Origin: a virus
Length of the DNA stretch: 48,627 bases
Strand: one strand, 5' to 3'
Virus record (IMG/VR): IMGVR_UViG_3300008266_000964
Coordinates: 1-48,627 of that record
In this document: positions 14,307-48,145 of the stretch, piece by piece
Layout: each line of letters begins with the position of its first letter
Position numbering within the stretch: position 1 is the first letter of the stretch
Program-made: the position numbers and the translations under genes
Notes under the pieces: model-generated
The model's input: the letters and a program-made list of their open reading frames with translations, nothing else
The model's database searches: none
Told to the model about the DNA's origin: nothing

Positions 14307-14666
14307 ATGCGCGGAAAATACGACCAAATCGAAGCCGATGGGCAGACCCGCACGCGTAGCCAAAAGCAAACGGCGGTCACCCCCTCCGGCGGCATTCCGT
14401 CTATCGAAATCTGCGAGCAAGAAATGGTAAAAATCGCCGGAAATGGCGAAGTGGTCTTGCGCGAAACCCCTGCATTTTCAGTGAACCTCACTCCGACAAG
14501 ACTGGCAAAAACATTCCCACTGAGAAACCCTGTGGACGATTCTCTGCTCGGCCAGACGGTTGACGGAAACCAAGCAATGGCGTTTTACTACAGTTTTATC
14601 CGCGACTGCCAACTCGAACGTGACGCATTGGCGGAGCAACCAATCGTACTCGAAGGAGCCGAGTAG
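14307..14666 (+). CDS. Phage protein of unknown function (119 aa)
   Basis: 119 residues, basic near the start (MRGKYDQIEADGQTRTRSQK) and acidic at the end (PIVLEGAE). The central part VRETPAF-like beta segments suggest a compact domain but no family was recognised. RBS AAGGAAC precedes the ATG. Its stop TAG overlaps the GTG start of the next gene by one base. It lies between fibre-like and membrane genes. Confidence 0.7.
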   Translation: MRGKYDQIEADGQTRTRSQKQTAVTPSGGIPSIEICEQEMVKIAGNGEVVLRETPAFSVNLTPTRLAKTFPLRNPVDDSLLGQTVDGNQAMAFYYSFIRDCQLERDALAEQPIVLEGAE

Positions 14667-15103
14667 TGGATCCTCTTCTCGCAAAAACCATATTCGACGT
14701 TGGCTTCACCGTCGTGTGCGGTGCCGTCGTTATCTTCCTTTTGGTCCTGCTGTTCCGCAAGTTCCTGCTGAACGCGAACGCAGACCGCAAGGACTTATTC
14801 GACATGCTCCAACGGCAGATCGACAGCCAACAATGCCAGATCGTCGAACTCACTCGCGAAGTGCGAAAGCTGCGGGAAGATAAAGATAAGTGGTTCCATC
14901 GCACGCTGGAAGTCCAAGAACGTCTGTCGGACGTGTTGGTCAGCGTCGTCCAGATGGGAACCTGGTGTAAAAATGGCCGTCATGGTGATCCGCCAAAGGG
15001 TCCGACCGAATCCGATTTTTTCACACCTCCGATGGATTGCGACGTGTCAACCTGTAGCGCCCCTGCGGTAGAACGATTTCGAGACAAAGCGTGTGGTTTG
15101 TAA
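14666..15103 (+). CDS. Membrane protein with coiled coil (possible lysis/injection role)
   Basis: 145 residues with a GTG start inside TAGTG. One transmembrane helix (VGFTVVCGAVVIFLLVLLF, about residues 12-30), then a predicted coiled coil (RKDLFDMLQRQIDSQ through VRKLREDKDKW, about 40-75) and a soluble tail with several Cys. The layout N-anchor plus periplasmic or cytoplasmic coiled coil resembles inner-membrane spanins, and the next gene encodes a lipoprotein-like protein, which would be the expected partner. However, both could equally be virion membrane-interaction proteins; the evidence is topological only. Confidence 0.55.
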   Translation: MDPLLAKTIFDVGFTVVCGAVVIFLLVLLFRKFLLNANADRKDLFDMLQRQIDSQQCQIVELTREVRKLREDKDKWFHRTLEVQERLSDVLVSVVQMGTWCKNGRHGDPPKGPTESDFFTPPMDCDVSTCSAPAVERFRDKACGL

Positions 15104-15205
15104 GGCTCCTTCGATGTTTGCACATTTTGCACCGCAGGCGCTTGCGGAAGATTTCGTTTTTCCACACCGATCCCAACAGCCAACGACTTCGTAAGAGGAG
15201 ATAAT

Positions 15206-15721
15206 ATGCGAGCAACCTTCATCAGTCTTTTCCTTGGGTGGGCGATCGCCCTTGCGGTCCTGGCCGGGTGCTTCGGCTATCGCGTTCCTGTCCAGGTCGT
15301 CCAGGTTCCTTCAGATCAGCCCGTTGTCGTTGCTGCCGTCGGAACAGTGGAAATGGTGCCGGCCACCGCCACCCAGCCAGCGATTGCGATTATGAACCCC
15401 AGGGTGATGGATCCGGCTAAGGTTGGCCCATTGCCGGAGCCGCAGCCTGCGCCAGAGGGAGGCGGCTGGTTGCAGACCATTCTGATCGGCGCCGTTGCGA
15501 TCCTATTTCCCGCAGCGGTCCCGTTCGTTCGCGGATTCCTCCAATACCGCGCAGCGTTTGCGAACGTGATCGGATCAGTCCAAGCGGTCAAGGACGCTTT
15601 ACCTGCGCAATATCGTGATAGGGTAAATGCCACGTTGGCAAGTTCACAGTCAAAATCAACCAGTGACCTTGTCAACAAGGTCAAAGTCAAGGCCAAAAAG
15701 CCTACAGGAGTCCAGCCATGA
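15206..15721 (+). CDS. Lipoprotein-like membrane protein
   Basis: 171 residues. The N-terminus has a lipoprotein signal peptide (helix FLGWAIALAVLAGC with a lipobox-like LAGC; Cys near residue 22), a Pro/Val-rich linker (about 25-85) and a second hydrophobic segment LQTILIGAVAILFPAAVPFV (about 90-109), then a basic tail ending KAKKPTGVQP. A lipobox protein beside a TM-coiled-coil protein suggests an outer/inner membrane spanin-like pair, although the second TM segment is atypical. RBS GAGGAG is strong. Coupled to the next gene by ATGA. Confidence 0.6.
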   Translation: MRATFISLFLGWAIALAVLAGCFGYRVPVQVVQVPSDQPVVVAAVGTVEMVPATATQPAIAIMNPRVMDPAKVGPLPEPQPAPEGGGWLQTILIGAVAILFPAAVPFVRGFLQYRAAFANVIGSVQAVKDALPAQYRDRVNATLASSQSKSTSDLVNKVKVKAKKPTGVQP

Positions 15722-17404: not shown

Positions 17405-19570
17405 ATGCCTTGTTGTTCGCCAATCATCAGGCTCCCAAAAAATGCACAGACGCTTATTCTGTGCCCGTGTGCCCCATGCGATACAACAGATGGATTCGTT
17501 GACATAATAAACGGAAACGTTGGGCAGTTGCTTAATTGGCCTAGTGATGGTTTTATAGATAAATCATGGAACTTTAACACTACCGGGCAGGTGTGTACCC
17601 TTCCAGACGGATGCGTAGACGCACTTTCTAGTTCATCGACTTACACTATTGCCGCACTGGTCAATATAAACTCCGTAGCAACATCGCCTCAGTTCTTTTT
17701 TAACCAGGGCCGTGGTGTCACCGGAGCAACCCCCGCGTTTGGGCTTGGCGCTCAAAATACGAACGGTGGTCGTTTTACTTTGTTCGGGCGGCATAATTCC
17801 ATCGATTTCACGCTAAATGGCGGAAAAATACAGTTTGGAAAATGGCAATTAGTTGTAGGTACATTAAACAACGGCGCTATGTCACTGTATGTGGACGGCG
17901 TTTTAACTGCGCAGGCGTATGGAAAAGGGCCGGCGATTTCGTTCACCAGCGTCGCCCAATTGCCATCAATTGGGGCACGAGATCAGGCAGGCAGTGCTCG
18001 CTGTGGTGGACGTATTGCCTGGGTGGCGGTCTGTAAAGATGCTCTAACGTATTCACAAATTCAAGCGCTGAGCAGACCTGGAAAACGTATTCTTGGGAAT
18101 AAGTTTCCGAGCGGCGGAGGAACAACCTACAACGACACCGTTGCGGAATCGACCGCTTCCGCCGACGCAACCGCAACCGTTCTGACCGCACTATCCGCCT
18201 TCACCGAAAGCGCAACCGCAGCCGATGTCATCGACGCCGCCCTAAGTCTCCAAGCCGCGCTGGCGGAATCTGCGGCCTCTAGCGACGATCTTTCATCGAC
18301 TGCCACGTTGGCGGTAGTCCTGTCAGAAATCTTATCCGCGCTTGACGCTGCTACAACAGGGTCGGTATTTTCGGATACCATCGCGGAATCCGCTGCCGCC
18401 GAAGCAACCAAGTCCGCGCTGATGGCGATGGTCGCGGCGATCACAGAATCCTCGTCTGCGGCAGACTCCCATGCGGTAGCCCTAACGGCGGTCAACGCAC
18501 TCCTTGAAGCCTCGGCGGCAAGCGAGAGTCTCTCCGCGACCCAAACGCTGGCCGCTGCTTTGGCAGAATCCTTGGCCGCGATATTTGCGGTGACAACCGG
18601 CTCCATATACTCCGATACTCTCGACGAATCCGCAGCAGCCGATGCGACCAAATCTGCGTTGATGGGCATGGCCTCTGCGCTGTCTGAAGCGTCCACCGCA
18701 GCAGATGCCCACGCCACGACGCTCGCGTCAGTCAATGCCATCCTGGAATCATTGGCGGCGGGCGACGACCAGACCTCTGCGCAAACGATGGCCGCGACGT
18801 TGGCAGAATCGCTTGCGTCCCTGTTCGCTGTGACGGAAGGCAACGTTTTCGGCGAATCGCTCACGGAATCCGCTGGGCTCGCAGAGGCCCTCGCGGCTAG
18901 CATTTTGAGCAATGTTTCCTTTACGGAAAGTGCGACCACTGCGGATTCTCAATCCGTCACAGCGATCCTGGCGGATGTTATCAACGAGGCGATTTTGGCC
19001 GGTTCGTCACAGGCGGCCCAGGCAGTCTTCGCGGACGCTCTGACAGAAACGCTCTTGGCCTTGGCGGTCGAATCTGCTGCGGTTGTCGGCGAGATCATCA
19101 GTCCGGCGTCCGTGCTGACCAACCGGGTCAAGGCGGTTTTGACCGCATCACAAAAGGTCCACGATCTGCTTGGCTTGACACTCGGCGCCCTGGGCAACTC
19201 CGCACGCCCGCGAATCTTCACCGGCCAAGCACGGACATTCTTGTGCGGGCGCAACCGTGGGCGCCTCCCGTTCTTTGAGATCCATGTCTCTGGGCAGGCA
19301 TTTGACCACGAGTCCTACGGTGCTGGAGCGATCACCCAGACCGCCCAGTTGACCATCCACCTCGGCGGCAAAGATCCAGGTGCGGCAGGACTACTGGCCG
19401 AGCGGGTGCTGTTGGCTTCGATGGCAGCCATTCGCAACGGCTCCGACAACCTGCTGGCCTTGGGAGACGAAACACTTGGCGACCTAGAACAAGGCCCATG
19501 GGGCCATCGCCGCACGATCACCTTTGCCGTGACGCAGACCTACGACCGCACAACTTACGAGGTTCCATAA
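17405..19570 (+). CDS. Adhesin-like protein: LamG domain, ES/AD repeats, tail-terminator-like end
   Basis: 721 residues in three parts. Residues about 25-230 form a concanavalin/LamG-like beta sandwich (WQLVVGTLNNGAMSLYVDGV is its core). Residues about 240-575 are low-complexity repeats of the type TESATAADS, roughly 14-20 residues long, rich in Ala, Ser, Glu and Asp, likely a long fibrous stalk. Residues about 590-721 form a separate domain (LPFFEIHVSGQAFDH, TAQLTIHLGG, a helix, and RRTITFAVTQTYDRTTYE) with the strand-helix plan of tail-terminator proteins. No stand-alone terminator gene is seen, so this end may serve that role. Confidence 0.7.
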   Translation: MPCCSPIIRLPKNAQTLILCPCAPCDTTDGFVDIINGNVGQLLNWPSDGFIDKSWNFNTTGQVCTLPDGCVDALSSSSTYTIAALVNINSVATSPQFFFNQGRGVTGATPAFGLGAQNTNGGRFTLFGRHNSIDFTLNGGKIQFGKWQLVVGTLNNGAMSLYVDGVLTAQAYGKGPAISFTSVAQLPSIGARDQAGSARCGGRIAWVAVCKDALTYSQIQALSRPGKRILGNKFPSGGGTTYNDTVAESTASADATATVLTALSAFTESATAADVIDAALSLQAALAESAASSDDLSSTATLAVVLSEILSALDAATTGSVFSDTIAESAAAEATKSALMAMVAAITESSSAADSHAVALTAVNALLEASAASESLSATQTLAAALAESLAAIFAVTTGSIYSDTLDESAAADATKSALMGMASALSEASTAADAHATTLASVNAILESLAAGDDQTSAQTMAATLAESLASLFAVTEGNVFGESLTESAGLAEALAASILSNVSFTESATTADSQSVTAILADVINEAILAGSSQAAQAVFADALTETLLALAVESAAVVGEIISPASVLTNRVKAVLTASQKVHDLLGLTLGALGNSARPRIFTGQARTFLCGRNRGRLPFFEIHVSGQAFDHESYGAGAITQTAQLTIHLGGKDPGAAGLLAERVLLASMAAIRNGSDNLLALGDETLGDLEQGPWGHRRTITFAVTQTYDRTTYEVP

Positions 19571-36809: not shown

Positions 36810-39275
36810 TCAGATGGATCCAGCGGGCGCGAAGCGAGCGCCATGTTCACTCCAGGATATTCCTACCCATGCGGTCCCCGCGCCGACGCGAGTCTTTTCC
36901 GTTGCGATGCCGAGCGACCGTAGCGCGGGATCAATGCGGCGCGAGAACGTCGTTTGTTGGCAAGAGTATTTGCGCCCGGTGTCTTCTGCCCACCTGCGGT
37001 ACGACTGAAACAAGTCGCGTGCGGATAAACGCCCGCCGACGGAGGGGGCGCAGCACTCTTTGATAAACGCTAACACGGGCATAACTTCATCACGGTACTC
37101 TTCCAAAAGCACGGATTCTGCCATGGTTTTCGTGCCGAACCCTTGGTCTTCCTGTAACAGAATCCGAAGGCCGCGAAGTGCCTCGTTCATAACACCCGGC
37201 ATTTCGGATTCGATGCGGGCTGGTAAGTCGCGGTCTTCAGAGCCAACGAATGAAACCTTGAAGTGTAACGCAGTCAAACGGCGCAGAATGGCTCCGCTTG
37301 GATCGGGGAAGGTGGGCAATTCGTTCGCAACCAACAGGATTCGTCCTGGCATCTGCGCGGTGAATCCGTCGCCGTAGATTTTACGCACGGGGATTTGGTC
37401 GCCGCCTGACCACGCTTTGATCTTGTCCGTGATCGCCTTGCCGTGTCCTTCGGACGAGTTCGCTTCTGGCATCAGAATGATCCGAGCGGACAAGAGCGGG
37501 AAGGTTCCGAACTCGCCCTGAACCGATTGCATCGTTGCGCTGGCCAGGGAATCTTCGCCAACGATTCCGCTCATGACTTTGGCGAAGGTCGATTTACCGG
37601 AGCCGGGGGCGCCGCAGAGAACAAAGATCACTTGAAACCGATTCTCAGCCAGGAGACTTGCGCCCATCATCTTGTGGGCGAGCCGCTGCTGGTCCGCGTC
37701 TGGCAAGGCTTCCGAGAAAAACTTACGGAGCGAGGGCGCAGTGGCGGACGGGTCGTAGTCGTAGGGGAGCACACTTTGGCAGAACAGATTCGGCGTGTTT
37801 TTGGCGAGAGCAACCGTCTTACTGTTCGACAACCATTCGGTGACGTTGAGGACGCCATTCTTGAACGCGATCAGATTTGGCGCAGGCCGTAGGTATTCTT
37901 TGCGCCGGCCAGGGCCTTCGGTGAGTTCAAACTGGGGTGGCATCACTTTCGGCAAGCAATAGACTTGGGTGTAACTCTTGACCGCTGACAGGATGCCTTT
38001 GATTTTCCGTTGGGGCAGGTGGCCACAGCGGAATGTGATTCGACTTTCCATCTCTTCGTCTGAAATGATGTAGTATTTTCCGCTGCGCCATTCGTAAAAC
38101 ATCTTGTGCATGCGGATCAGACCGCCCTCGGGGTAGTACAGGGCAAGGTATGTGACTGCGTCTTGCGTGTCGTTTTCACCGAGGATCACGGCGCTGACTT
38201 GGCCTGTGGCGGCATTGGCCGGCGTTTGGTCTTGCTGGTCCGCTTGGGCGGGCGCCAACGCGACTGGAGGCATTTGGCCCTGAGCAGCAATCTGAGCCTG
38301 GAGGATCGGAGCGAGCAGGGCCGATGTCGTCACGGGTCCGTGCAGAGTCCCTTGGTCTTCTTTGCTCCGTGCGGACTGGATCATCCGCTCGATTTCGCGG
38401 GAACCAGGTTCGCGGCCTTGCTCGATGAACAGTTCGGTGATGGTTTCAACGATGGTGTCGTCGTCGGCACCAACGCTGACTAGATCGCAAACGCACGCAA
38501 CCGCATGGTGATGGCGGGATCCTTTGGCGCGTTGGGCCAGAACGTCGATGACAGCGGCCCTTATCTCGCCCGCTGATCCCTTGGCGGTTGACGTAGATTT
38601 AACCGGCGGCACCCATTCGGGGATTAAGTTGACATCGACCGTGTCCGCAACGATTCCATCCAGAATCTCCCAACGCGATTGGCCGGCGTGTGGATCAACG
38701 GCGCCATCGACGAAGATCGGATCCGCGAGGAACACGGGGTGACAAGCCGCTGCCCAGGGAGAAACATCGAGACCGGGAATCTGTGACCAATCGTAGGCGT
38801 GGAGCAGATCGCGGCGAATGTTCTGGCGGTCGTGGGGGGTCAGCAGGAACCAAAGGCGAAAGAAGCGAACGTCTTGGGCGGGATCGTCGCGGCTGGTCCA
38901 CTGGCGGACGCAGGAGACTTCCTGGAGAAAGGGCGGCAAGATCACGTCAACGGGCGATCCATCGAAGTCGAGACAGAACGCTGTCAGATTGGTGTCAACG
39001 ATGGCGCCGCACTCTTCAGGAGTATCTGCTTTGTTCAACGGTGAGTTCTTCAGGCGGCGCGTGATTCGTTTGCCTGGGTCAACGTCCGCAGGGATGTCGC
39101 CATGGACGTAGATGGCGTCCGAATGATCCGTCAGATTCTTGAGCAAGTCGGGAAGGTTGGTTGCGTTGGGCTGGCGGGAGAAGTGCCACCAGAAGACAGA
39201 AGCGCGAGGAAGCGGGCCAGTCGGCGAAATGTGTTTGCCTGTGAACTGACCGCTCGCGGGAGTGAGGAAGAGCAT
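36810..39275 (-). CDS. Primase-helicase (primpol N-terminus plus D5-like SF3 helicase)
   Basis: 821 residues. The N-terminal region has an archaeo-eukaryotic primase-like acidic motif (CLDFDGSPVDV, about residue 100) with an associated DVRFFRLWFLL strand. The C-terminal half carries the SF3 helicase P-loop GAPGSGKSTFAK (about residue 555), a Walker B-type segment ARIILMPEAN and the downstream ILLVANELPTF, as in phage/plasmid D5/P4-type helicases. It would synthesise primers and unwind the replication fork. The start at 39275 has AAAGAATG upstream; a TTG 10 codons earlier overlaps the methyltransferase stop. The family A polymerase is its natural partner. Confidence 0.9.
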   Translation of the reverse strand: MLFLTPASGQFTGKHISPTGPLPRASVFWWHFSRQPNATNLPDLLKNLTDHSDAIYVHGDIPADVDPGKRITRRLKNSPLNKADTPEECGAIVDTNLTAFCLDFDGSPVDVILPPFLQEVSCVRQWTSRDDPAQDVRFFRLWFLLTPHDRQNIRRDLLHAYDWSQIPGLDVSPWAAACHPVFLADPIFVDGAVDPHAGQSRWEILDGIVADTVDVNLIPEWVPPVKSTSTAKGSAGEIRAAVIDVLAQRAKGSRHHHAVACVCDLVSVGADDDTIVETITELFIEQGREPGSREIERMIQSARSKEDQGTLHGPVTTSALLAPILQAQIAAQGQMPPVALAPAQADQQDQTPANAATGQVSAVILGENDTQDAVTYLALYYPEGGLIRMHKMFYEWRSGKYYIISDEEMESRITFRCGHLPQRKIKGILSAVKSYTQVYCLPKVMPPQFELTEGPGRRKEYLRPAPNLIAFKNGVLNVTEWLSNSKTVALAKNTPNLFCQSVLPYDYDPSATAPSLRKFFSEALPDADQQRLAHKMMGASLLAENRFQVIFVLCGAPGSGKSTFAKVMSGIVGEDSLASATMQSVQGEFGTFPLLSARIILMPEANSSEGHGKAITDKIKAWSGGDQIPVRKIYGDGFTAQMPGRILLVANELPTFPDPSGAILRRLTALHFKVSFVGSEDRDLPARIESEMPGVMNEALRGLRILLQEDQGFGTKTMAESVLLEEYRDEVMPVLAFIKECCAPSVGGRLSARDLFQSYRRWAEDTGRKYSCQQTTFSRRIDPALRSLGIATEKTRVGAGTAWVGISWSEHGARFAPAGSI

Positions 39276-39301
39276 GGTTACATTCTTTCGGATTTTAGTT
39301 G

Positions 39302-40453
39302 TCAAACGGACATGAAGGCTTTTATGAACTCTTCCGCTTGCGTGGCGACGATAGCGTTACCATACCCGCGCAAACGTCCCACGCGGGAGGGAGCGCCATT
39401 AGCCAACGGGAATGTGCCGGGTTCAACTGGCCGCCACTTTCCATCCCGGCATCCGAGCCAGTCAGCATCTCTCCAGAAACCGTTAGTCGGGCCGGACCGT
39501 CCGATAGTGTCCACTTCGACATTGACGGCAGATCGTCCAGCCCGCCCTTCCGCGCTATCTCCGCCGCACAACCCTCCATCGTGCGCGAACCCTTCTCCCC
39601 GTCCGAGGATCGTGGAGTCGGCCATCCCGCAAAACAGACCGTCTCCTGCAAGTTTTTCTGGCGATTCTGGAAGAACCGTTTTTCCATCGCAGTCAGATCC
39701 TTGTATCCCCCGCGATCCGCATTGGCCGCATTCGGTGTCGGCCATCCAGCAAAACTTGCTACTTGCGGAAGGCTGACTGTTGCCTTCGATCCGTCCGCCC
39801 GGCGGCCTGTTGCACTCGCGCCTTTCGCCATCTGACTGCCGTCCGCGTTCCCGACTGTCGGAGTCGGCCAGGATGACAGAAATACTGTTTTTCGGCTGGA
39901 GTCTGTGTTTCCAGCCGCGTTGTATCCCTTCTGCGCAGGAGTTCCGGCCATCGGAGTCGGCCACCCAGTACAGTCGCTTTCGTTGGTGCGGCGCACCGAA
40001 ACCACAAGCTGCGGTAACAGTCGCCCCAACGGTGTATAACGATCCTTCCAAGTCATTGCATACAAGGTCGAGCCAATCGATTCCGTCCTTGCCCGCAACT
40101 TGCTCCCCAAATACACAGTCAGGGTGGCACTGTGATATGAGCCAGTGGAACGCCGGCCAAAGATGCCGCTCGTCATCAAACCCAGCGCCTTTGCCTGCCG
40201 TGCTGAAAGGTTGGCATGGGCAGGATCCGGTCCAGACGGGGCGGTCGTCAGACCATCCGGCTTTTCGCAAGGCGTAGGACCAGACTCCGATACCGGCGAA
40301 GAAATGGCATTGAGTGAATCCGCTGAGGTCTGAGGGCAAGACATCTTCAATACTCCGTTCGTCAACGATGCCGTCCGCAATGTGTCCGGCTTTGATGAGT
40401 TCTCGCAACCATTGCGCTGCGAATGGGTCGATTTCGTTGTAGTAGGCGGTCAT
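39302..40453 (-). CDS. DNA cytosine-5 methyltransferase
   Basis: 383 residues with motif I FFAGIGVWSYAL (about 51-62), motif IV with the catalytic Cys in CPCQPFSTAG (about 78-87), motif VI-like VFGEQVAGK (ENV variant), motif VIII QRKRLYWVAD, a variable target-recognition region with repeated ADSD/ADTE segments, and the C-terminal motifs PVEPGTFPLANGAPSRVGR and GYGNAIV. It methylates C5 of cytosine, likely against host restriction. The start (MTAYYNEIDPF) uses the ATGA overlap with the preceding gene. About 88% of the gene is overlapped by a second frame, 39322-40344. Confidence 0.92.
   Translation of the reverse strand: MTAYYNEIDPFAAQWLRELIKAGHIADGIVDERSIEDVLPSDLSGFTQCHFFAGIGVWSYALRKAGWSDDRPVWTGSCPCQPFSTAGKGAGFDDERHLWPAFHWLISQCHPDCVFGEQVAGKDGIDWLDLVCNDLEGSLYTVGATVTAACGFGAPHQRKRLYWVADSDGRNSCAEGIQRGWKHRLQPKNSISVILADSDSRERGRQSDGERRECNRPPGGRIEGNSQPSASSKFCWMADTECGQCGSRGIQGSDCDGKTVLPESPEKLAGDGLFCGMADSTILGRGEGFAHDGGLCGGDSAEGRAGRSAVNVEVDTIGRSGPTNGFWRDADWLGCRDGKWRPVEPGTFPLANGAPSRVGRLRGYGNAIVATQAEEFIKAFMSV
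39322..40344 (-). CDS. Overprinted protein with GWPTP repeats, in frame +1 of the methyltransferase
   Basis: A 340-codon open frame lying entirely within the cytosine methyltransferase gene on the same strand, starting at an ATG with GGAG 8 bases upstream. The product begins MSCPQTSADSLNAISSPVSE, has LTTAPSGPDPAHANLSARQA and four WPTP blocks (near 39614, 39734, 39859 and 39953), and ends QLNPAHSRWLMALPPAWDV. I recall phage proteins with recurring GWPTP and LNP.HSRWLMG.PP.WD motifs, which argues for a real protein family, but I cannot verify it here. Each WPTP block coincides with an ADS/ADT segment of the methyltransferase. Function unknown. Confidence 0.6.
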   Translation of the reverse strand: MSCPQTSADSLNAISSPVSESGPTPCEKPDGLTTAPSGPDPAHANLSARQAKALGLMTSGIFGRRSTGSYHSATLTVYLGSKLRARTESIGSTLYAMTWKDRYTPLGRLLPQLVVSVRRTNESDCTGWPTPMAGTPAQKGYNAAGNTDSSRKTVFLSSWPTPTVGNADGSQMAKGASATGRRADGSKATVSLPQVASFAGWPTPNAANADRGGYKDLTAMEKRFFQNRQKNLQETVCFAGWPTPRSSDGEKGSRTMEGCAAEIARKGGLDDLPSMSKWTLSDGPARLTVSGEMLTGSDAGMESGGQLNPAHSRWLMALPPAWDVCAGMVTLSSPRKRKSS

Positions 40454-40650
40454 GGGGTGACGACACCACGAGTACGAATCTGATGCTTCAGTTGCGCCAG
40501 CCACAGCGGATCCGTGCTGCCACGTGGGACAAAGACCGGCGGCTTTATGGCGTCCAATGACTGCCGGGCGCCTTCGAGTGCGGCGCGGCCTTCGGCTGCA
40601 TCACGCGCCAAACGGGCCTTTTGACGATGGGATTGCGGGGTAATCGGCAT
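40450..40650 (-). CDS. Small protein of unknown function (66 aa)
   Basis: 66 residues, basic and helical at the start (QSHRQKARLARDAAEGRAAL), with a C-terminal PPVFVPRGSTDPLWLAQLKH. It bridges the polymerase stop (one base away) and the methyltransferase start (ATGA overlap), so all three are co-translated. A DNA-binding accessory is possible but unproven. Confidence 0.65.
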   Translation of the reverse strand: MPITPQSHRQKARLARDAAEGRAALEGARQSLDAIKPPVFVPRGSTDPLWLAQLKHQIRTRGVVTP

Positions 40651-40651
40651 G

Positions 40652-42649
40652 TTACTTCCGGTAAAAGGGAGAAATGAAACCTTCTGAACGTACTGGCAAT
40701 CCCGGCATACTGGGCACGGGGGTTGCCATGATGGCCTGCAATTTCTTCAGGCAAGCCTCCGCATCGGCAAGCGGAACCTCGCAGCCGATCTCATCGTGCG
40801 AGTGGAGAACGGGGTTTAGGCCCATTTTCTCCGCCGCGCACATGTTGTTCGCCTGGACATCGCGGTCAGCCGCTTGGACCAGGTTTTCAAGGACGGATCC
40901 GCCCCAGACGCTATCGGAAACCCACTGATGCGACTCGCCATCCTCGAACCAGTAATGAACCGACGGATTATCGAAACGATTGGGGGCGACGAAAGCGTGG
41001 TTGTAAGTCAGCCAACGGCCCGATGGCAAACGGAGGCGAAGGGCGGGGGCTTCAAAGCGGAAGGCGCAGGGGCCGGCGACGAAGTCCCGCCCAGGGGACC
41101 GCATGGCCGCCAACATTTGGCGGTCTATCAGGCGCCAGTATTCGACGACTTCGTGGTATTCGGCCCGCACTTTTGGAATGAGCATCTCGCAGATTTCAAG
41201 AGGTAACTTTGTTACCCCGTGCAATTTCTTCGGCCCGGTACCATAGGTCCAGCCGATACCGAACTTCTTGCCGAGGTCGCCGCGTTCTTCGGCGGTGATG
41301 GTTTCGGCGGGGCGCCCAAGGATCATAGCCGCTTGGTGCCGGTAGAAACCAGGGAACTTCTCGATCAACACCGTCAGTAGTTTGTCGCACCCTGACATCC
41401 AGGCGGTTGTCAGCGGTTCGATACTGGAGAGGTCAGCGATGACAAACGTATGGCCAGGTTTGGCGATGAAACAGCAACGGATCATGCCGGATAAAATGTC
41501 AAAGATTGATTTGGCGCCGTAGTAGAGCGCCAGGTTGTCGTAGGTCGATTGCGGGTCTTTTCCTTCCGCAATCAGTTGGCGGACAAGGATAACGTCTTTT
41601 TCTTTCAGCACTCCGCGTGGTAAGTTTTGAGTCTGTACGCCTCGCCCCGCCCAACGCATCGTGGTGTGAGCACCGCCATACTGATAGACCCAATGGACTC
41701 GATCTGTTTCGGGGTCTGCAAACAGAAGGATGCGGTCGAGTTTTGACAGCGAGGTTTTTCCCAACATTTGGCGAAGTTCTACGACTCGTCCGGCTTCCTC
41801 GTCTCCCTTTTCCACGATCTGCGGGATGATCTTTTCGGCCATGGCTTTCTTGTCCATGCCGCCTTTTTCATAGACGGCTACGATGCCCCTGGACGACAAC
41901 CACGTGGCCATCCCGCGCAGATCGGTGCCGCCTGAGACTTGGCCATCCGTCAGATCCCGCAACTCTTTGCGAAGGTGCGCCATGTTCACTTCGCGCACGT
42001 CGATGAGTTTCTGAACGAACGGGCGGTCGATCATCAGCCCACGGTCGTTCACTGAGGCATCGGTACGAATGATTTCGGTTTCGACCGGAGTTGCAGGCGG
42101 GAGAAGACACGAGATTTCGTTTTCTGACTTCGTGTCTGTAACGCAATACTCTAGCAATCTGGCAACGTTCTCGGGCGTGTGGTGCCGCCAGGGATCTTTG
42201 AGGTTCTTTGTGATCCGTGCGGGCTTGCACATTTTCAGCATCAGATCGTGTCCCTCCATGTCCTTTTGGATTTTGACACGAAGGACACGCCCGGCGGCTT
42301 CGAGACTGCCGGGAATGTTTGCTGTGTAGCAGCGGTGCATCGTATCGTCCCACCGTTCAACGGGCGGACACGCAGGCCATCCATGGTGAACGGTGAAACA
42401 ATGCTTCCACATGAGGCGATCGAAAGCCATCACGTTCATCCCACGAAAAATAACATCAGGATCCGCTAAGACTGCTCGGAACTCGGGGAACATCGGTTCC
42501 AAGATGGTCCACGTCAGAACTTGTGGCCCATCGACCAAGGCGGCGCAGATGCCGCGAGTGGAGGAGTGCTTGGAGTACGTCCAGGCTCCGCACTCTTTCA
42601 GGTCGAGTTCGGATCGGCTTTCGACATCGAAACTAACGTATCGGGGCAC
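40652..42649 (-). CDS. Family A DNA polymerase with 3'-5' exonuclease domain
   Basis: About 665 residues. Exonuclease motifs: SFDVESRSELDL (ExoI, D-x-E), RGMNVMAFDRLMWKH (ExoII) and YCVTDTKSE (ExoIII), so proofreading is expected. Polymerase motifs: A FVIADLSSIEPL, B-like ERGDLGKKFGIGWTYG and C HSHDEIGCE. No N-terminal 5' nuclease. It replicates the phage genome with the primase-helicase. The start is uncertain: GTG at 42649 follows AAAGA, and a TTG 10 codons earlier is possible; no strong RBS is present. The cassette-like array starts right upstream of it. Confidence 0.93.
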   Translation of the reverse strand: MPRYVSFDVESRSELDLKECGAWTYSKHSSTRGICAALVDGPQVLTWTILEPMFPEFRAVLADPDVIFRGMNVMAFDRLMWKHCFTVHHGWPACPPVERWDDTMHRCYTANIPGSLEAAGRVLRVKIQKDMEGHDLMLKMCKPARITKNLKDPWRHHTPENVARLLEYCVTDTKSENEISCLLPPATPVETEIIRTDASVNDRGLMIDRPFVQKLIDVREVNMAHLRKELRDLTDGQVSGGTDLRGMATWLSSRGIVAVYEKGGMDKKAMAEKIIPQIVEKGDEEAGRVVELRQMLGKTSLSKLDRILLFADPETDRVHWVYQYGGAHTTMRWAGRGVQTQNLPRGVLKEKDVILVRQLIAEGKDPQSTYDNLALYYGAKSIFDILSGMIRCCFIAKPGHTFVIADLSSIEPLTTAWMSGCDKLLTVLIEKFPGFYRHQAAMILGRPAETITAEERGDLGKKFGIGWTYGTGPKKLHGVTKLPLEICEMLIPKVRAEYHEVVEYWRLIDRQMLAAMRSPGRDFVAGPCAFRFEAPALRLRLPSGRWLTYNHAFVAPNRFDNPSVHYWFEDGESHQWVSDSVWGGSVLENLVQAADRDVQANNMCAAEKMGLNPVLHSHDEIGCEVPLADAEACLKKLQAIMATPVPSMPGLPVRSEGFISPFYRK

Positions 42650-42703
42650 TGTGTGATTTTTCTTTCGGAGGTGGGTCAAAGTCTGGGATAGACGGATCGA
42701 CGG

Positions 42704-43111
42704 CTACACATGGCCCGCAGGGAGTTCCTGGTTAGACGGCTGTCCGTCTAACCCAGTTAGCATGGCTGGCTGCATAACAAGACTGTTGGGCGGATTGAAA
42801 TACCAGTAAATTGGTATTTTTTGGGTTTCGTTCCAGTCTTTGACTTCAGGGACGTTCAAAACCATATTCCCATAATCGTGCGGACCCCATGGACCAAGAA
42901 ACCCTCCCTCAATTACCGCAGTACGCTTTTTGTTTTTGGTGTTTTCATGGTGCTGTGATGCGTGCTGATTGCACATAAAAACAGGACGGCCCATCACATG
43001 TTTCATTCCATTACAGCCACCAGAGACCGCGCAGGGAATTTCCCAAGACGATTTCCTTTTGCATCGTTCACCGTTTTTTTTAATGCAGTCGCATTGATTG
43101 GTTCTTATCAT
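42704..43111 (-). CDS. Cys-rich protein next to the cassette array (135 aa)
   Basis: 135 residues starting MIRTNQCDCIKKNGERCKRK. Cys/His spacing (CDC, ERCKRK, PCAVSGGC, FMCNQHASQHH) suggests a zinc-binding domain of the type 'C..kkG.rCkr...C..H' found in many small mobile-gene products. AT-richer than flanking phage genes. It lies left of the first attC-like site and could be the first cassette. The start at 43111 is preceded by GAGAAAGTG. The stop region contains a perfect 10-bp hairpin (42730-42753). Confidence 0.65.
   Translation of the reverse strand: MIRTNQCDCIKKNGERCKRKSSWEIPCAVSGGCNGMKHVMGRPVFMCNQHASQHHENTKNKKRTAVIEGGFLGPWGPHDYGNMVLNVPEVKDWNETQKIPIYWYFNPPNSLVMQPAMLTGLDGQPSNQELPAGHV
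42730..42753. repeat. Perfect 10-bp hairpin in the 3' end of the Cys-rich gene
   Basis: GGTTAGACGG (42730-42739), CTGT loop, CCGTCTAACC (42744-42753). The arms read GTTAGAC and GTCTAAC, which match the integron core consensus GTTRRRY and RYYYAAC, but in the inverse order of a normal attC. It may be a terminator-like RNA hairpin inside the coding end or a remnant recombination site. Confidence 0.5.
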
Positions 43112-43147
43112 TGTATTCACTTTCTCGAAATAGTGTTGAAAATTATC

Positions 43148-43200
43148 GCCCAACAAGTCAATGAACCGGTGCCTTCGGCCCGGTTATCCGGGCGTTAGGC
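43148..43200 (+). other. attC1: attC-like recombination site 1 (short type)
   Basis: Terminal boxes GCCCAAC (43148-43154, RYYYAAC) and GTTAGGC (43194-43200, GTTRRRY) enclose GTCAATGAACCGG and CCCGGTTAT around the inner GCCTTCGGC hairpin. It is 53 bp long and can fold into one imperfect cruciform. Shares 30-odd bases with sites 2 and 4. Confidence 0.8.
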
Positions 43201-43213
43201 AGAAAGACAAAAA

Positions 43214-43489
43214 ATGGACGATGAAATATCTAACTTGCTTACCGAATTGAAACAGATTTCTGAGAATGGATGCGCACCTCCAGTGGCGAGAGTGCCTTTA
43301 CAAATTCCGGTTTTTGCGAAACTTATCGCCCGCATTGCTGAAGAACGGGCGAAGTCTGCGGAAAAGATGGAGCGACAAACAAACAAACTGATTTTTCTTA
43401 CTTGGGCAATCGTTTGGCTGACCATGGGCCTCTTTGTGCTGACAACGGGTCTTTTGATACTCACGCTTCTCTTGGTAAAGTTCGCGTAA
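43214..43489 (+). CDS. Cassette 1 gene: C-terminal membrane protein (91 aa)
   Basis: 91 residues. The first 55 are soluble and helical (ISNLLTELKQISENG, LIARIAEERAKSAEKMERQT), then two closely spaced transmembrane segments or one long hairpin (KLIFLTWAIVWLTMGLFVLT followed by GLLILTLLLVKFA). It sits alone between attC-like sites 1 and 2, in the forward orientation expected for a gene cassette. Its codon use is A/T-richer than in the phage genes around it. Small membrane cassettes are common; a superinfection-exclusion or stress role is possible but unsupported. RBS is weak (AGAAAGAC). Confidence 0.65.
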   Translation: MDDEISNLLTELKQISENGCAPPVARVPLQIPVFAKLIARIAEERAKSAEKMERQTNKLIFLTWAIVWLTMGLFVLTTGLLILTLLLVKFA

Positions 43490-43633
43490 TATTTTTAGTA
43501 ACATCACAAGAATTACTAAAAAATAAACCATGAGTAAGCACAGTCCTATTCTCACGCATATGATCACTGGGTATGTACTCACTGGTAATGTAATCACAAT
43601 GTATCTCCTTAGATACGGGGTTAAGAAAAAGAT

Positions 43634-43687
43634 GCCTAACACGGCAATGGACCGGAGCCTTCGGCCCGGTCATCTTAGACGTTGGGC
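43634..43687 (+). other. attC2: attC-like recombination site 2 (short type)
   Basis: GCCTAAC (43634-43640) and GTTGGGC (43681-43687) enclose CAATGGACCGG, GCCTTCGGC and CCCGGTCATCTTAGAC. 54 bp, almost the same as sites 1 and 4 but with substitutions, as expected of independent attC sites rather than a simple duplication. Confidence 0.82.
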
Positions 43688-43699
43688 GGGCAAAAATAG

Positions 43700-43873
43700 T
43701 TACCACTCAAGCGCCATCTGGTGATTGCTCGCGCACTGTAGGGAACAAAAAACCATATCATCTGTTTTTATTTTATTATCATGCGTCCTATAAATAATCT
43801 TTTTTCTAAACGGAGAGAGTATTGATGCGCCACATTGTGGGCATTTTTCTTTTTGTGCTTGTGATGGTTCCAT
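43700..43873 (-). CDS. Cassette 2 gene: zinc-ribbon protein on the minus strand (57 aa)
   Basis: A 57-residue frame with an excellent RBS (AGGAGATACAAA before the ATG at 43873). The sequence EKCPQCGASILSPFRKK, then VFCSLQCASNHQMALEW, forms a treble-clef/zinc-ribbon type CxxC...CxxxC site. It fills the segment between attC-like sites 2 and 3 and runs opposite to the array's inferred direction. AT-rich. No closer family recognised. Coding confidence is high for its size because of the RBS and the paired Cys motifs. Confidence 0.7.
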   Translation of the reverse strand: MEPSQAQKEKCPQCGASILSPFRKKIIYRTHDNKIKTDDMVFCSLQCASNHQMALEW

Positions 43874-43909
43874 TTTGTATCTCCTGGTTTTTGTAGCTCA
43901 TTAAATGCC

Positions 43910-44005
43910 TCCCAACAAGCGCGATTCAGCACGAGCGGGCGACTGGGTGTTTTCTATGCTTCACGGACGGGCAACGCGCCCGCCGGCTGATCTGTGGCGT
44001 TGGGC
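43910..44005 (+). other. attC3: attC-like recombination site 3 (long type)
   Basis: TCCCAAC (43910-43916; first base differs from RYYYAAC) and GTTGGGC (43999-44005). Inner arms GATTCAGC and GGCTGATC pair with one extrahelical T, and CGGGCG pairs with CGCCCG. Length 96 bp. It shares its plan and much sequence with site 5 but not with sites 1, 2 and 4. Confidence 0.75.
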
Positions 44006-44028
44006 AAATACACGAAAGGCATAAAGAC

Positions 44029-44259
44029 ATGAAACCATACAAAGACATAAACAGAGACTCCGGCATTTCGTCCTACGAATACGGTGATGATTGGATCGCC
44101 ATACAGTTTAAGCACGGCGGAACCTACGTGTACCGTGCAGCAAGAATCGGAATGACACACATTACGAGAATGAAAAAACTGGCAGAGTCTGGTGATGGAT
44201 TAAATGCCTACATAAATACAAATGCGGACGTTAAGAATGGGTACTCGGACAAGCAATAA
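44029..44259 (+). CDS. Cassette 3 gene: KTSC-domain protein (76 aa)
   Basis: 76 residues (MKPYKDINRDSGISSYEYGD...) with the KTSC-type pattern: Ser-Ile/Tyr start, a strand pair with IAIQFKHGGTYVYRA, then a short helix and SGDGLNAYINTN. KTSC domains are small, of uncertain function (proposed link to RNA or membrane proteins), and occur often as stand-alone genes in gene cassettes and mobile DNA. Forward orientation relative to the attC-like sites. RBS AAAGGCATAAAG. Its 3' end overlaps the convergent gene 44231-44419 by 29 nt. Confidence 0.75.
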   Translation: MKPYKDINRDSGISSYEYGDDWIAIQFKHGGTYVYRAARIGMTHITRMKKLAESGDGLNAYINTNADVKNGYSDKQ

Positions 44260-44419
44260 CGTTATCTCGTCGCATAACCAGCGCCTGCCCTTCTACTATC
44301 TCGCATCGCTCGCTGTCAACGATTGCCTTACAGTGCGGATGGCAGTTTGTGTTTAGCCACTCCATCAACGGCATTGCGGCCTTGTTTAGTTCTTGTACTT
44401 GTTGGTCAGTGAATCGCAT
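44231..44419 (-). CDS. Cassette 3 second gene, convergent (62 aa)
   Basis: 62 residues (MRFTDQQVQELNKAAMPLME...) with a strong RBS (TTTAGGAGTTTTT before ATG at 44419). Helical N-terminus, then Cys/His-bearing NTNCHPHCKAIVDSERCEIV, possibly zinc-binding. It runs opposite to the KTSC gene within the same cassette-like unit and overlaps it at the 3' end. No family recognised, but the RBS makes it credible. Confidence 0.6.
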   Translation of the reverse strand: MRFTDQQVQELNKAAMPLMEWLNTNCHPHCKAIVDSERCEIVEGQALVMRRDNVIACPSTHS

Positions 44420-44447
44420 AAAAACTCCTAAAGAAGAAAGGTTAAGC

Positions 44448-44501
44448 CCAACCAGTCAATGAACCGGAGCCTTCGGCCCGGTTATCTTAGACGTTGGGCG
44501 G
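44448..44501 (+). other. attC4: attC-like recombination site 4 (short type)
   Basis: GCCCAAC (44448-44454) and GTTGGGC (44495-44501) are exact reverse complements. Inside, GTC pairs with GAC and AACCGG with CCGGTT around the GCCTTCGGC apex, leaving unpaired internal bases on each side. 54 bp; the clearest of the five sites. Confidence 0.85.
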
Positions 44502-44735
44502 ATCAAATAGTGGAATGCGCCCAATCGCGAATTTTATCGCCTCTGCACGCATTGCACACTCTGAAGCCTCCTTGTACGCGCCAATTCGTAAAAAATTACT
44601 GCATATTTCTGGAAATTCTCTTTGCCAATCAAGCATTTCATTCTTAAATGCTTCTAGTCTAGTTCGCATCATTTCATTTTCTTTTTCCAAAAAATGCAAT
44701 CTATCAATAATAGAATCAGGATTGTTATCGGTCAT
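44487..44735 (-). CDS. Cassette 4 gene: coiled-coil protein ending inside attC4 (82 aa)
   Basis: 82 residues starting MTDNNPDSIIDRLHFLEKEN, with a predicted coiled coil (LEKENEMMRTRLEAFKNEML) and a further helix with Cys (CAMRAEAIKFAIGRI). RBS AAGGAGATATATA before ATG at 44735 is strong. Its last codons (DPPNV-stop) lie within the right end of attC-like site 4; running into an attC is a common property of cassette genes. It lies on the minus strand of the unit between sites 4 and 5. Confidence 0.7.
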   Translation of the reverse strand: MTDNNPDSIIDRLHFLEKENEMMRTRLEAFKNEMLDWQREFPEICSNFLRIGAYKEASECAMRAEAIKFAIGRIPLFDPPNV

Positions 44736-44769
44736 TATATATCTCCTTGGATGAATAGTTAAAATTACC

Positions 44770-44864
44770 GCCAAACAAGACGATTCAGGCCGAGCGGGCG
44801 ACTGGTCGTTTATGGTGCTTGGCTGGCGTCACTTGCGCCCTCCGTCTGATCGTTTGCGTTGGGC
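44770..44864 (+). other. attC5: attC-like recombination site 5 (long type)
   Basis: GCCAAAC (44770-44776, one mismatch to RYYYAAC) and GTTGGGC (44858-44864). Arms GATTCAG and CTGATC pair with one extrahelical T, and GGGCG pairs with CGCCC. Length 95 bp; same type as site 3. Marks the right end of the array, next to phage genes. Confidence 0.72.
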
Positions 44865-44879
44865 ACAAAAACCAAAACC

Positions 44880-46187
44880 TCATGAATCCTGGACAGCCGA
44901 AGCGCCGCAAGCCGCACGGCCAAAAATCATTTCACGATGCGTTTCAATCCCGCTCATCAGACTAGCGACAAGGTGCTGGTTTTCGCTCAGTTTCAGATCG
45001 CCACGAACGGATGCGGTCTTCTTCACAAAATCATCAAGTCCCGAAAGTAACGCCGCCAACAGAACACTATCGCTCGCTTTCGACAAGGCCAACGCTTTCT
45101 CTTCGGCGGCGATGCGCTCAACTTCAGCCTTGTGCAGATCGGCGGCTTTCGCTTTCGCTCCGGCCAACCATGCCCGCGCCATGTCGATGCGGCCTTCGGC
45201 TTCCATGTCCATTTCGTCCCACTGCATCCCGGCGAACTCGTCCAGTCTGGCGCCCATGCGGTACAAAGTTTCGCCAGACGATGCCGTGACAGTGTGCGAA
45301 GTCATGTCGCGGATTTCGTTGAGGCGGTCTTGTAGCAGCAGAATGCGGAGAGATTCCAAACGATCCTTGCGGGCTTTTTCTTCCGCATCTTTGCGAGCCT
45401 TTTCTTCGGCAGCACGCTTGGCCTGGTCTTCGGCCCGTTGCTTCGCGGCCAATTCCTCGCGCAGTTTTGCTGCTTCGGCCTCCGCTGCTTGGCGTTCCTG
45501 ACGGGCTTTCTCAGCGGCTTCGTCCGCAATCCGCGCGGCCTCTTTCAACGCTTTGTCGACGGCTTCCCGTTCGATTCTGCGAGCGAGTTCGGCACGGTCG
45601 GAACTGTCTTTTTCTTCTCGTACTCGCAGCAGCAAACGCTGGTACATGTCTTCCGACATCGCCAGGAAGTCGTAGCCTTCGGTGCTGGCGTACTGTTTGA
45701 TTTCGGCCTCACGGAACCGAGCGCTATCTTCGGCGACTTTGCGCTCCGCAGCGGCTGCATCGTCCACGATCTTATTGAGGTGCGCTTCGACTGGACTCAA
45801 AACGTGGAGCAGAACCCTATTGGTCCCATCCACGGCGGCGATGCGCGAGCGGGAATCTTTGTTGAGTTCGAGGCGGTTTTTCTCCGCTGCCGTTCGGATC
45901 CGCTTGACTTTGAGGGCCAACGTTTTTGCAGTGGCGGCATCGCTGGGATCAACGGCGGCACACGCGGGAATGATTTCGGCCAGATCCGCCATGTGCTTGT
46001 CGAACACCGCGCGGATGACTTTGACCTCTTGCATGCCAACGGTCGTGACGGGGTCGATGCCAGCGGAAATGATGGCCGATTGCATCTTTTCGGTTGTGGC
46101 GGTTATGAGGGCCTGAGTGTCAGCGGAGGGGACCGAAGGCGTAATGGGTTCGGTTTGGGCCGGGGAGGGCGTGGGTTTCTTGGCCAC
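44880..46187 (-). CDS. Long coiled-coil protein of a recombination/replication module (435 aa)
   Basis: 435 residues from a GTG start (MAKKPTPSPAQ after the initiator) with AAAGGAAACTCCT as RBS. The N-terminal 40 residues are Pro/Thr-rich; then helical segments, and from about 190 to 320 an almost continuous coiled coil (EAARIADEAAEKARQERQAA, KQRAEDQAKRAAEEKARKDA). Phage proteins like this are common beside single-strand annealing or exonuclease genes (DUF1351-type neighbourhood) and may act as SbcC-like or scaffold accessories. Here they sit with a DUF2815-like SSB and a DUF2800-like nuclease. Confidence 0.7.
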   Translation of the reverse strand: MAKKPTPSPAQTEPITPSVPSADTQALITATTEKMQSAIISAGIDPVTTVGMQEVKVIRAVFDKHMADLAEIIPACAAVDPSDAATAKTLALKVKRIRTAAEKNRLELNKDSRSRIAAVDGTNRVLLHVLSPVEAHLNKIVDDAAAAERKVAEDSARFREAEIKQYASTEGYDFLAMSEDMYQRLLLRVREEKDSSDRAELARRIEREAVDKALKEAARIADEAAEKARQERQAAEAEAAKLREELAAKQRAEDQAKRAAEEKARKDAEEKARKDRLESLRILLLQDRLNEIRDMTSHTVTASSGETLYRMGARLDEFAGMQWDEMDMEAEGRIDMARAWLAGAKAKAADLHKAEVERIAAEEKALALSKASDSVLLAALLSGLDDFVKKTASVRGDLKLSENQHLVASLMSGIETHREMIFGRAACGASAVQDS

Positions 46188-46230
46188 AGGAGTTTCCTTT
46201 GCAACATTGGGCGCGATGCTGTCGAGAGAT

Positions 46231-46264
46231 AAAAAGCCCCGCCAAGGAACACCCTTGACGGGGG
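46231..46264 (-). terminator. Rho-independent terminator, leftward
   Basis: Minus strand: CCCCGTCAAGG, GTGTT loop, CCTTGGCGGGG (one mismatch) followed by CTTTTTA. A near-perfect 11-bp stem with a T-tract, placed between the SSB-like gene stop (46280) and the coiled-coil gene start (46187). It would lower expression of downstream replication genes relative to the SSB. Confidence 0.88.
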
Positions 46265-46279
46265 AGCGCACCAGTCCGC

Positions 46280-46972
46280 TCAGAGTTCTTCGGGTGCAGG
46301 TGGAATCGGGGCCGCCATTCCGCCAAACATCGACTTGACTTGGGAAACAACATGGTCGCCGCCGAGGAACTTGCTGCCGTCGCCCGCGTGGGAACGGATG
46401 CAAGACTTCAACGACGTTGACATGACGACTTCTTTATTTCCTTCATGCAGGTATTTACCTTTGGCCTTGAATACGTCGATCATATCCTTTTTCAACGGGA
46501 TAAACTTGACGCCAACCGTAATCTGGCAGTAGCCAAAGTCTCCGTGCTTGATGATCTGGCGGCTTTCGTCCAGAATAAGATCGCCTCCTGCAACGGCAGG
46601 AAGTTGGAAAACCTTCGGAGGCTTTGAAACGCTTTCGACTTTACTGAGCGACGTTTGGAAGTTTTTGGACCAAGTGCCAGCCCGACCTTTTGACTTGTAT
46701 TCGTCCGAATCTCCGTCGGCGATGTTCAGACTGATATCCTCGTTTTTGATATGAACGATCCCCAGTTGGCGCAAGAACTCCTGCGCGGCCTTCAGGAGAT
46801 TTGGCTCCGTGGCGTTCAGTGTGTCGGTTTTAGGCCACACTACGCAGGTGGAAAACTTACCGATGGAGTTCTGGTATTCCGAGCGTTCGCACGGGACCAA
46901 GAGTCGCGGGTGGATAAACTGGACAAGTCCTGTTGCACAGGGTATCCAGAAAGGAGTGTTTCCGGTAGCCAT
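46280..46972 (-). CDS. Single-stranded DNA-binding protein (DUF2815/Enc34-like)
   Basis: 230 residues. The early strand IHPRLLVPCERSEYQNSIGK followed by STCVVWPKTD, the middle KNEDISLNIADGDSDEYKSK and the later GDLILDESRQIIKHGDFGYC fit the Enc34-type phage ssDNA-binding family (DUF2815). These coat single strands during replication or recombination. The start at 46972 has AGAAAGAATCCC; an ATG 14 codons earlier has none. It ends before a strong terminator, as expected for a highly expressed protein. Neighbouring DUF2800-like nuclease and coiled-coil gene are frequent companions of this family. Confidence 0.78.
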   Translation of the reverse strand: MATGNTPFWIPCATGLVQFIHPRLLVPCERSEYQNSIGKFSTCVVWPKTDTLNATEPNLLKAAQEFLRQLGIVHIKNEDISLNIADGDSDEYKSKGRAGTWSKNFQTSLSKVESVSKPPKVFQLPAVAGGDLILDESRQIIKHGDFGYCQITVGVKFIPLKKDMIDVFKAKGKYLHEGNKEVVMSTSLKSCIRSHAGDGSKFLGGDHVVSQVKSMFGGMAAPIPPAPEEL

Positions 46973-47038: not shown

Positions 47039-48145
47039 TCAGTCTTCAGAACCAGAATCAGAAACAAGTTTCGGCGTGCCTTCAGGCTTTTCAGACAATC
47101 GAGATACTGCCGCCGAGGCAACCGCCTTGCCATGAACTTTTGCCAGGGCCTTGCGGGCGGCGGCGGGCGTAATCACATCTACCGCATCGATACCGAGTTC
47201 TTCCAAGGCGGCGATGGTATCCTTGACGGGGAGTTTCCATTGGTCGTGCGGTTTCGTTGCGCCGACTGACCATCCGGGGACGCCGCCGCATGCCAAGGCC
47301 CGCTTTTCAATCGCTGTGAACAGTTTGGTGACATACGATTTCGCATCTAACACTTGGGCCATCTGGGCAGGAGTGAGAGCGCCCGCAACGTCTTTTACGT
47401 CCGGCAGATCGCGAAGGCTCATGCCCACGGGTGTAGCGACTGCGATGACTTCGGCCAGTTTCTTGTGGTGCGAACGGCAAACGTCGCGACCTTTGCAGAA
47501 TCCGCAGTGGTCGCCTGGAAGCGTGTTGTCGAGTGTCGAGGTCATGTTGACTTTGTTTGATTGAATAGAATCGAATGATTCTTGCTGAAACAAATCAACT
47601 TCGCCGACGGTCGGCGCCCATTGCCGCACTTTTGCGCCTTCCACTTCGTCGTAGTGAACAATTGTCAACTGGAACGCCGATGGACCAATGTCGTTTGCCA
47701 CGCAGTACGCAACGGCCCCGAATAAAAGCTGGTCGTTCTGGAACGCCTGCACCGGCATGTCACCGGTTTTGAGGTCGGCGACGTGCAGAGTGTCCGTCAA
47801 TTCGTCGTACCAAACGGCGTCGAGCGTGGTCCCGGCGGTGTCTTTCAGGAGTTCGCAAGGGACTTCGATCCGCCAGCCAAGCCGAACGTCAACAACCGAT
47901 TTCCAGGCGTTGGCGAGCGGAAGCAACCACAGGGGGACATCTTCGGCTTTCCGCGAGCCAATAGCGTACTCGTGGCAGATGGCGTGGTTTGCGGTGCCGT
48001 CTTCCATCGCCTTGGTGACGATGGTTTCAGCCTTGCGAGTGGTGGCGTACCAGCCAGGGCAGCGCAGCCATTGCTCGCACGTTGACCCGCCGAAGGGCCA
48101 ATGCCGCGTGGGCGCCAAGGTTGGCGGGAGTACGCTGCGGCTCAT
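47039..48145 (-). CDS. Cas4/RecB-like PD-(D/E)XK nuclease (DUF2800-like)
   Basis: 368 residues. N-terminal STCEQWLRCPGWY and an ANHAICHEYA helix, then the nuclease core TTLDAVWYDELTDTLHVADL followed by KTGDMPVQAFQNDQLLFGAV (D...D-x-K with the later Q/Y), and a Cys cluster CGFCKGRDVC (about 215-225) that with the N-terminal Cys can hold an iron-sulfur cluster as in Cas4/AddB nucleases. The C-terminus is helical. It likely resects DNA ends for phage recombination, partnering with the SSB-like protein downstream. ATGA overlap with the partial gene on its right. Confidence 0.85.
   Translation of the reverse strand: MSRSVLPPTLAPTRHWPFGGSTCEQWLRCPGWYATTRKAETIVTKAMEDGTANHAICHEYAIGSRKAEDVPLWLLPLANAWKSVVDVRLGWRIEVPCELLKDTAGTTLDAVWYDELTDTLHVADLKTGDMPVQAFQNDQLLFGAVAYCVANDIGPSAFQLTIVHYDEVEGAKVRQWAPTVGEVDLFQQESFDSIQSNKVNMTSTLDNTLPGDHCGFCKGRDVCRSHHKKLAEVIAVATPVGMSLRDLPDVKDVAGALTPAQMAQVLDAKSYVTKLFTAIEKRALACGGVPGWSVGATKPHDQWKLPVKDTIAALEELGIDAVDVITPAAARKALAKVHGKAVASAAVSRLSEKPEGTPKLVSDSGSED

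Follow-up and report, generated by a model that had tools for sequence, protein, structure and literature searches.

A tailed phage carries, within its replication module, a cluster of five attC sites interspersed with small genes. The sites are of two types, and both types recur at the corresponding position in a related phage, around other genes. The most probable explanation, which we put at roughly 70%, is that this is a phage-borne array of integron cassettes that lacks an integrase of its own and is exchanged by a host integron integrase (IntI) acting in trans. The sequence analysed, referred to here as the window, is a linear record of 48,627 bp from the IMG/VR virus collection, without host genome, and is that of a tailed phage with genes for a terminase large subunit with an intein, a portal, a P22-type coat protein, a primase, a family A DNA polymerase and an exonuclease.

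Several other features of the window were seen. The intein (PF14890, 4.1e-10) interrupts the terminase large subunit gene at 4728–7385. A C5 cytosine methyltransferase (PF00145) is encoded at 39302–40504, and a long second ORF (39322–40380) lies there on the same strand in another frame. Inside a 721-aa ORF (17405–19570), a sequence of about 222 bp occurs twice as imperfect direct repeats (69%; 18353–18815), and near the left end of the contig lie four GC-rich repeats, related to one another and hairpin-like (GGGGCGCA...GGCGCCCCGGTTTCGGGTGGTT; 1–39, 273–309, 1808–1864 and 2185–2240), possibly terminators or an origin feature.

attC sites at the polymerase/coiled-coil junction

The array lies where the original prediction had placed it within the phage replication module, at the junction between the family A DNA polymerase gene (40652–42679, minus strand; phrog_17, 4.1e-76; 74% identical in contig L013, from a sister phage) and a coiled-coil gene (44880–46313, minus strand), the homologue of which occupies 5453–6700 of L013. 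It is also, as had been claimed, richer in AT than the phage, with 44.6% GC compared to 55.6% for the window. A near-identical contig, L004 (99.96%), covers only 37206–42531, and so the array is known from one assembly; however, both flanks are syntenic with L013, which speaks against a chimera.

Five sites with RYYYAAC and GTTRRRY ends had been proposed and all five are present, except that the fourth ends at 44446 and 44499, two positions from where it had been drawn. All are on the plus strand and they are of two types: the type-1 sites are about 54 nt long (attC1, 43148–43200, 53 nt; attC2, 43634–43687, 54 nt; attC4, 44446–44499, 54 nt), and the type-2 sites 95–96 nt (attC3, 43910–44005, 96 nt; attC5, 44770–44864, 95 nt). 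The last of them closes the array about 16 nt short of the end of the coiled-coil gene. The sites share one polarity, conserved spacing and extra-helical bases in register. With pairing read by eye, one arm consists of RYYYAAC, a seven-base spacer (lengthened to eight in some type-2 sites), a T, an extra-helical base, a stem of 6–7 bp and a second extra-helical base, which is A in most; the other arm has an A, then 7–8 bases, then GTTRRRY. The T falls 8 nt after RYYYAAC in 15/15 bona fide sites and in all type-1 phage sites; in the type-2 sites it stands there or one base away. A search with the type-1 pattern, allowing up to 3 mismatches, gave 3 matches compared with 0.00 expected. Of the imperfect hairpin claimed for each site, the unpaired and extra-helical bases stood, but the strength of the fold relative to shuffled sequences varied, from a z of −4.4 for the bottom strand of attC4 to only −0.4 for attC5. 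Since the folds were not all stronger than those of shuffles, hairpin energy by itself is insufficient to make the case for attC.

An independent model, R1, was built from 15 attC sites adjoining integron-integrase genes in other bacteria and contained no site of the window; the reference integrases (TIGR02249) came from a single bacterial class (143 genomes) and from one MAG outside it. R1 recovered dozens more attC sites in the reference integrons, with few exceptions on the expected strand. In the window it matched the short sites attC2, attC4 and attC1 on the plus strand with 43.5, 42.7 and 37.5 bits (E 1e-10 to 6e-9; 9.5e-11 for attC2), scores equal to the best among the several dozen bona fide integron sites that it found. 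In an unfiltered search the next matches were the same short sites on the wrong (minus) strand, at about 14 bits or less (maximum 14.3); with default filters attC5 also scored, at 19.3 bits. attC3 was absent from the cmsearch matches of R1 in the window. The unfiltered search missed attC3 and attC5, a likely effect of the loop trimming in the sequences from which R1 was made, and a loop-excised version of the profile was therefore used for scoring. With this profile the five sites were the top five of the 48.6-kb window (43.4, 43.4, 42.1 for attC1, 31.5 for attC5 and 28.6 for attC3), the next scoring 17.9 and six shuffled windows reaching 11–21. attC3 is called from the loop-excised scoring and from its resemblance to the other type-2 sites; a second model, R2, made from four phage type-2 sites only, gave it 104 bits, but attC3 is a member of that training set. 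In the reciprocal direction, R2 matched a bona fide attC of an unrelated integron (contig L063) with an E value of 2e-5 on the correct strand. Rejection of all five sites by a covariance search had been named as a refutation of the prediction; here such a search, with R1, accepted four of the five sites by cmsearch and all five by loop-excised scoring.

The absence of a visible integrase was also confirmed: there was no match to the integron integrase model TIGR02249 in the window or any phage contig tested, and none above cut-off to the tyrosine recombinase family PF00589 in the phage contigs, which are linear and possibly incomplete and leave room for a phage integrase elsewhere. The window has no intI gene, as a complete integron would, and a cluster of attC sites without an integrase is a CALIN; the five sites span 1.72 kb, well within the proximity of about 3–4 kb by which CALINs are defined.

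Cassettes and the orientation of their genes

The claim that sites alternate with units of one or two genes held for all five cassettes, which are 318–494 bp long, lie in the plus orientation and each contain a single attC with one or two very small genes; their content also differs between relatives. Cassette 1 (42786–43194, 409 bp) has an ORF on the minus strand (42704–43111) for a Cys/His-rich protein of 135 aa, which runs into the boundary element described below (site 0). In cassette 2 (43195–43681, 487 bp) the ORF is on the plus strand (43214–43489, 91 aa, with one membrane helix judged by eye) and there is a second possible ORF at 43530–43724. Cassette 3 (43682–43999, 318 bp) encodes on the minus strand (43700–43873) a zinc-ribbon-like protein of 57 aa that matched PF24461 and zinc-finger families weakly, and also phrog_1520. 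Cassette 4 (44000–44493, 494 bp) has a plus-strand ORF (44029–44259, 76 aa) converging with one on the minus strand (44231–44419, 62 aa); the former, which we take, as in the original prediction, to be KTSC-like, had no Pfam match. Matches of this cassette were to phrog_17428 (5.5e-17) and phrog_16206 (7.2e-8), and it showed 47% identity to a stretch of a phiKZ-group protein. In cassette 5 (44494–44858, 365 bp) a minus-strand ORF (44487–44735) preceded by an AGGAG ribosome-binding site encodes 82 aa that by eye appear coiled-coil-like. A search of viral contigs for relatives of the cassette proteins gave none that were useful. A shared motif, GTTGGGCGGATYAAA or similar, follows the core site at 42785–42800, 43681–43690 and 44493–44505, and such a cassette-start motif also occurs in L013, beside 14788 and 7062; the cassettes concerned carry unrelated genes.

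In the bona fide arrays the longer ORF was in the sense of the attC site in 29/35 cassettes. The phage cassettes do not have this canonical orientation: from our own reading of the ORF lists, 7/9 had antisense genes only, one was sense and one mixed, a count that is less clear when automated with ATG starts only, because some ORFs start with GTG or overrun the cassette ends. The antisense genes run in the direction of phage transcription, and it is possible that the bias reflects selection within the cassette pool for genes that can be expressed from the phage.

Variable content in a sister phage and an attI-like boundary element

The sister phage was found by scanning viral contigs for both attC types, and was present in two samples (contigs L011/L013 and L012/L014) as sequences identical over 17,986 bp. 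The phages sampled amount to three lineages, represented by contigs that may be fragments. At the polymerase/coiled-coil junction of L013 there are one type-2 and one type-1 attC, with genes unrelated to the cassettes of the window, one of them carrying a Phage_ABA_S domain. Inside the array the sequence common to the two phages is limited to the att sites and a few adjoining bases, and the only match between cassette proteins was a stretch of about 30 residues overlapping site 0. A second, two-site array was present in L013 at 14459–15270, after an HTH gene. The window has the HTH gene at this locus but no attC up to the next shared gene, and the distance between these genes is about 480 nt in the window compared to about 1,500 nt in L013. 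Comparison of related phages therefore gave different cassettes at the same locus, as well as an array present in one relative and absent from the other. It had been argued that a gene block fixed together with its hairpins in distant relatives would point to ordinary intergenic hairpins; instead, the relative has the same att types with other genes at the same spot, and this suggests that the phages trade the units through a bacterial enzyme. L015, with a polymerase 26% identical, proved too remote a relative to be of use and had no attC match above noise. The attC at 7062 of L013 has a GTCGGGC R box. Between the coiled-coil gene and the attC array of L013, a 66-bp piece of the 3′ end of that gene is duplicated (6508–6573 and 6965–7030, 97% identical), perhaps a trace of insertion or recombination.

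The original prediction had overlooked an att-like element of 62 bp (site 0; 42730–42791, plus strand) at the polymerase-side end of the array, the position of attI in an integron. It contains the half-sites GTTAGAC, GTCTAAC, GTTAGCA, GCATAAC and GTTGGGC, of which the last is a core site (42785–42791), and from the other end of the element weaker conservation runs on to about 42684. Copies 91–92% identical were found at the end of array 2 of L013 (92%) and in contig L088; array 1 of L013 ends in a shorter, diverged relative. The L088 copy, found by a pattern scan, lies beside terminase genes, 148 bp from the end of the contig, and is the sole similarity of that phage to the window, so that the element is common to unrelated phages. 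Similarity between array 2 of L013 and the other copies drops at GTTGGGC, whereas the window and L088 share four further bases, the motif that is also present at several cassette ends.

Two other identities for site 0 were considered and rejected. It does not follow the spacing grammar of attC, and its R1 scores on the two strands were only 12.9 and 10.2 bits. A conserved protein C-terminus would explain the roughly 30 residues shared by the adjoining ORFs, but the variable columns, counted by codon position in the overlapping ORF, are 1/6/2 for positions 1/2/3; being mostly second positions, they fit constraint on the DNA better than on the protein. The known sites closest to site 0 are attI sites such as attI1, and attG sites: it is at the array end, where attI lies, and like attI1, in a form confirmed to be present in plasmids, it has repeated GTTA half-sites before a GTTRRRY core. 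Unlike attI it has no adjoining intI, nor a significant match to attI1. We call it attI-like rather than attI: its place, its conservation as DNA and its terminal core site are features of sequence, from which attI activity does not follow.

No bacterial integron with these attC or site 0 sequences was encountered. Exact attC pattern scans of GTDB contigs gave nothing and later six chance matches without attC ends, the type-2 model had no match in 146 bacterial genomes, and site 0 was not matched in 695 bacterial genomes from two phyla. Searches by blastn of phage and plasmid collections with the array or with site 0 gave chance matches only, and the array region had no match in Rfam.

Proposed exchange of the cassettes and its alternatives

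Integron integrases act on attC in the form of its folded bottom strand, which they recombine at G|TTRRRY with attI, attC or secondary sites. As the phage contigs have no integrase, the enzyme would need to come from the host. A host IntI supplied in trans would act on the folded bottom strands, cutting at the core sites, so that cassettes would be excised and inserted and the phage could vary which small accessory genes occupy its fixed landing places. We infer exchange by IntI at these particular sites; the boundary element would be the landing site, and the cassettes would presumably benefit the phage, for example against host defences.

The sites are intergenic and form hairpins, as would ordinary terminators or other small repeats resembling attC, but the E values near 1e-10 with an independent attC model, the strict polarity and the fact that R2 in turn matched a bona fide attC largely refute such an origin, which we regard as highly improbable. 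A different question is whether IntI is still involved. Cassettes derived from bacterial integrons might now be moved by phage exonuclease and annealing functions, the attC repeats of 54–96 bp and site 0 recombining between co-infecting phages. An exonuclease-like DUF2800 protein is encoded near the array (47042–48145), the repeats are long and similar enough for recombination at short homologies, and the lack of an integrase in the phage contigs would fit. However, homologous recombination requires no attC pattern, and features of use to IntI only (the RYYYAAC and GTTRRRY ends, the T, the extra-helical positions and the unpaired spacers) have been kept in two differing types of site, and we consider this explanation unlikely.

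CALINs are often taken as leftovers, and the arrays might likewise go back to a single capture from bacterial integrons, by illegitimate recombination, with nothing but decay afterwards. Imperfect sites, such as the attC with the GTCGGGC R box and the diverged boundary element of array 1 in L013, would be in keeping with decay. But a single capture does not predict two phage species with one landing place, different cassettes and the same two attC types, nor a boundary element common to an unrelated phage, and a passive relic of this kind seems to us quite improbable. Exchange by a host IntI is thus the reading that we favour.

The expectation that an array inside a phage would be unusual holds, but the kind is already known: 17 CALINs in phages, with virulent and temperate phages both represented, have been described (Qi et al. 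2023, PMC9892861), and further reports may exist beyond the literature accessible to us. In that work IntI1 recombined 5/6 tested attC sites from virulent phages, and the CALIN of phage TJE1 is preceded by a hairpin that has inverted GTTRRRY motifs (Qi et al. 2023, PMC9892861) and resembles the hairpin in site 0. The array of the window is like these in being an attC cluster without integrase in a phage genome; the present case differs in that two relatives carry different cassettes at the same place, one of them also has another array elsewhere, a boundary element is common to otherwise unrelated phages, the genes are mostly antisense and the phages are uncultured. With sedentary chromosomal integrons the array shares attC architecture, cassette size and the presence of several similar attC sites, but unlike them it has no intI, mostly antisense genes, a phage context and five cassettes only.

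What is added to the known CALINs is therefore the difference in content between relatives at the same locus, a second locus, a boundary element found across phages and a reversed gene polarity. Different cassettes at a fixed landing place in related phages are evidence that isolated phage CALINs could not give. A broader proposal is that phages keep integrase-free integron platforms of their own, with an attI-like landing site across unrelated phages and phage-adapted cassettes turned with phage transcription, worked by host IntI during infection; we advance this tentatively, our own leaning being somewhat against it. Should the boundary element be an attI, phages would carry a dedicated platform on which small accessory genes are swapped by a bacterial recombinase, and this would be a possible route by which cassettes travel between bacteria. 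The element also provides a sequence handle for locating more such phages and the helper integrase.
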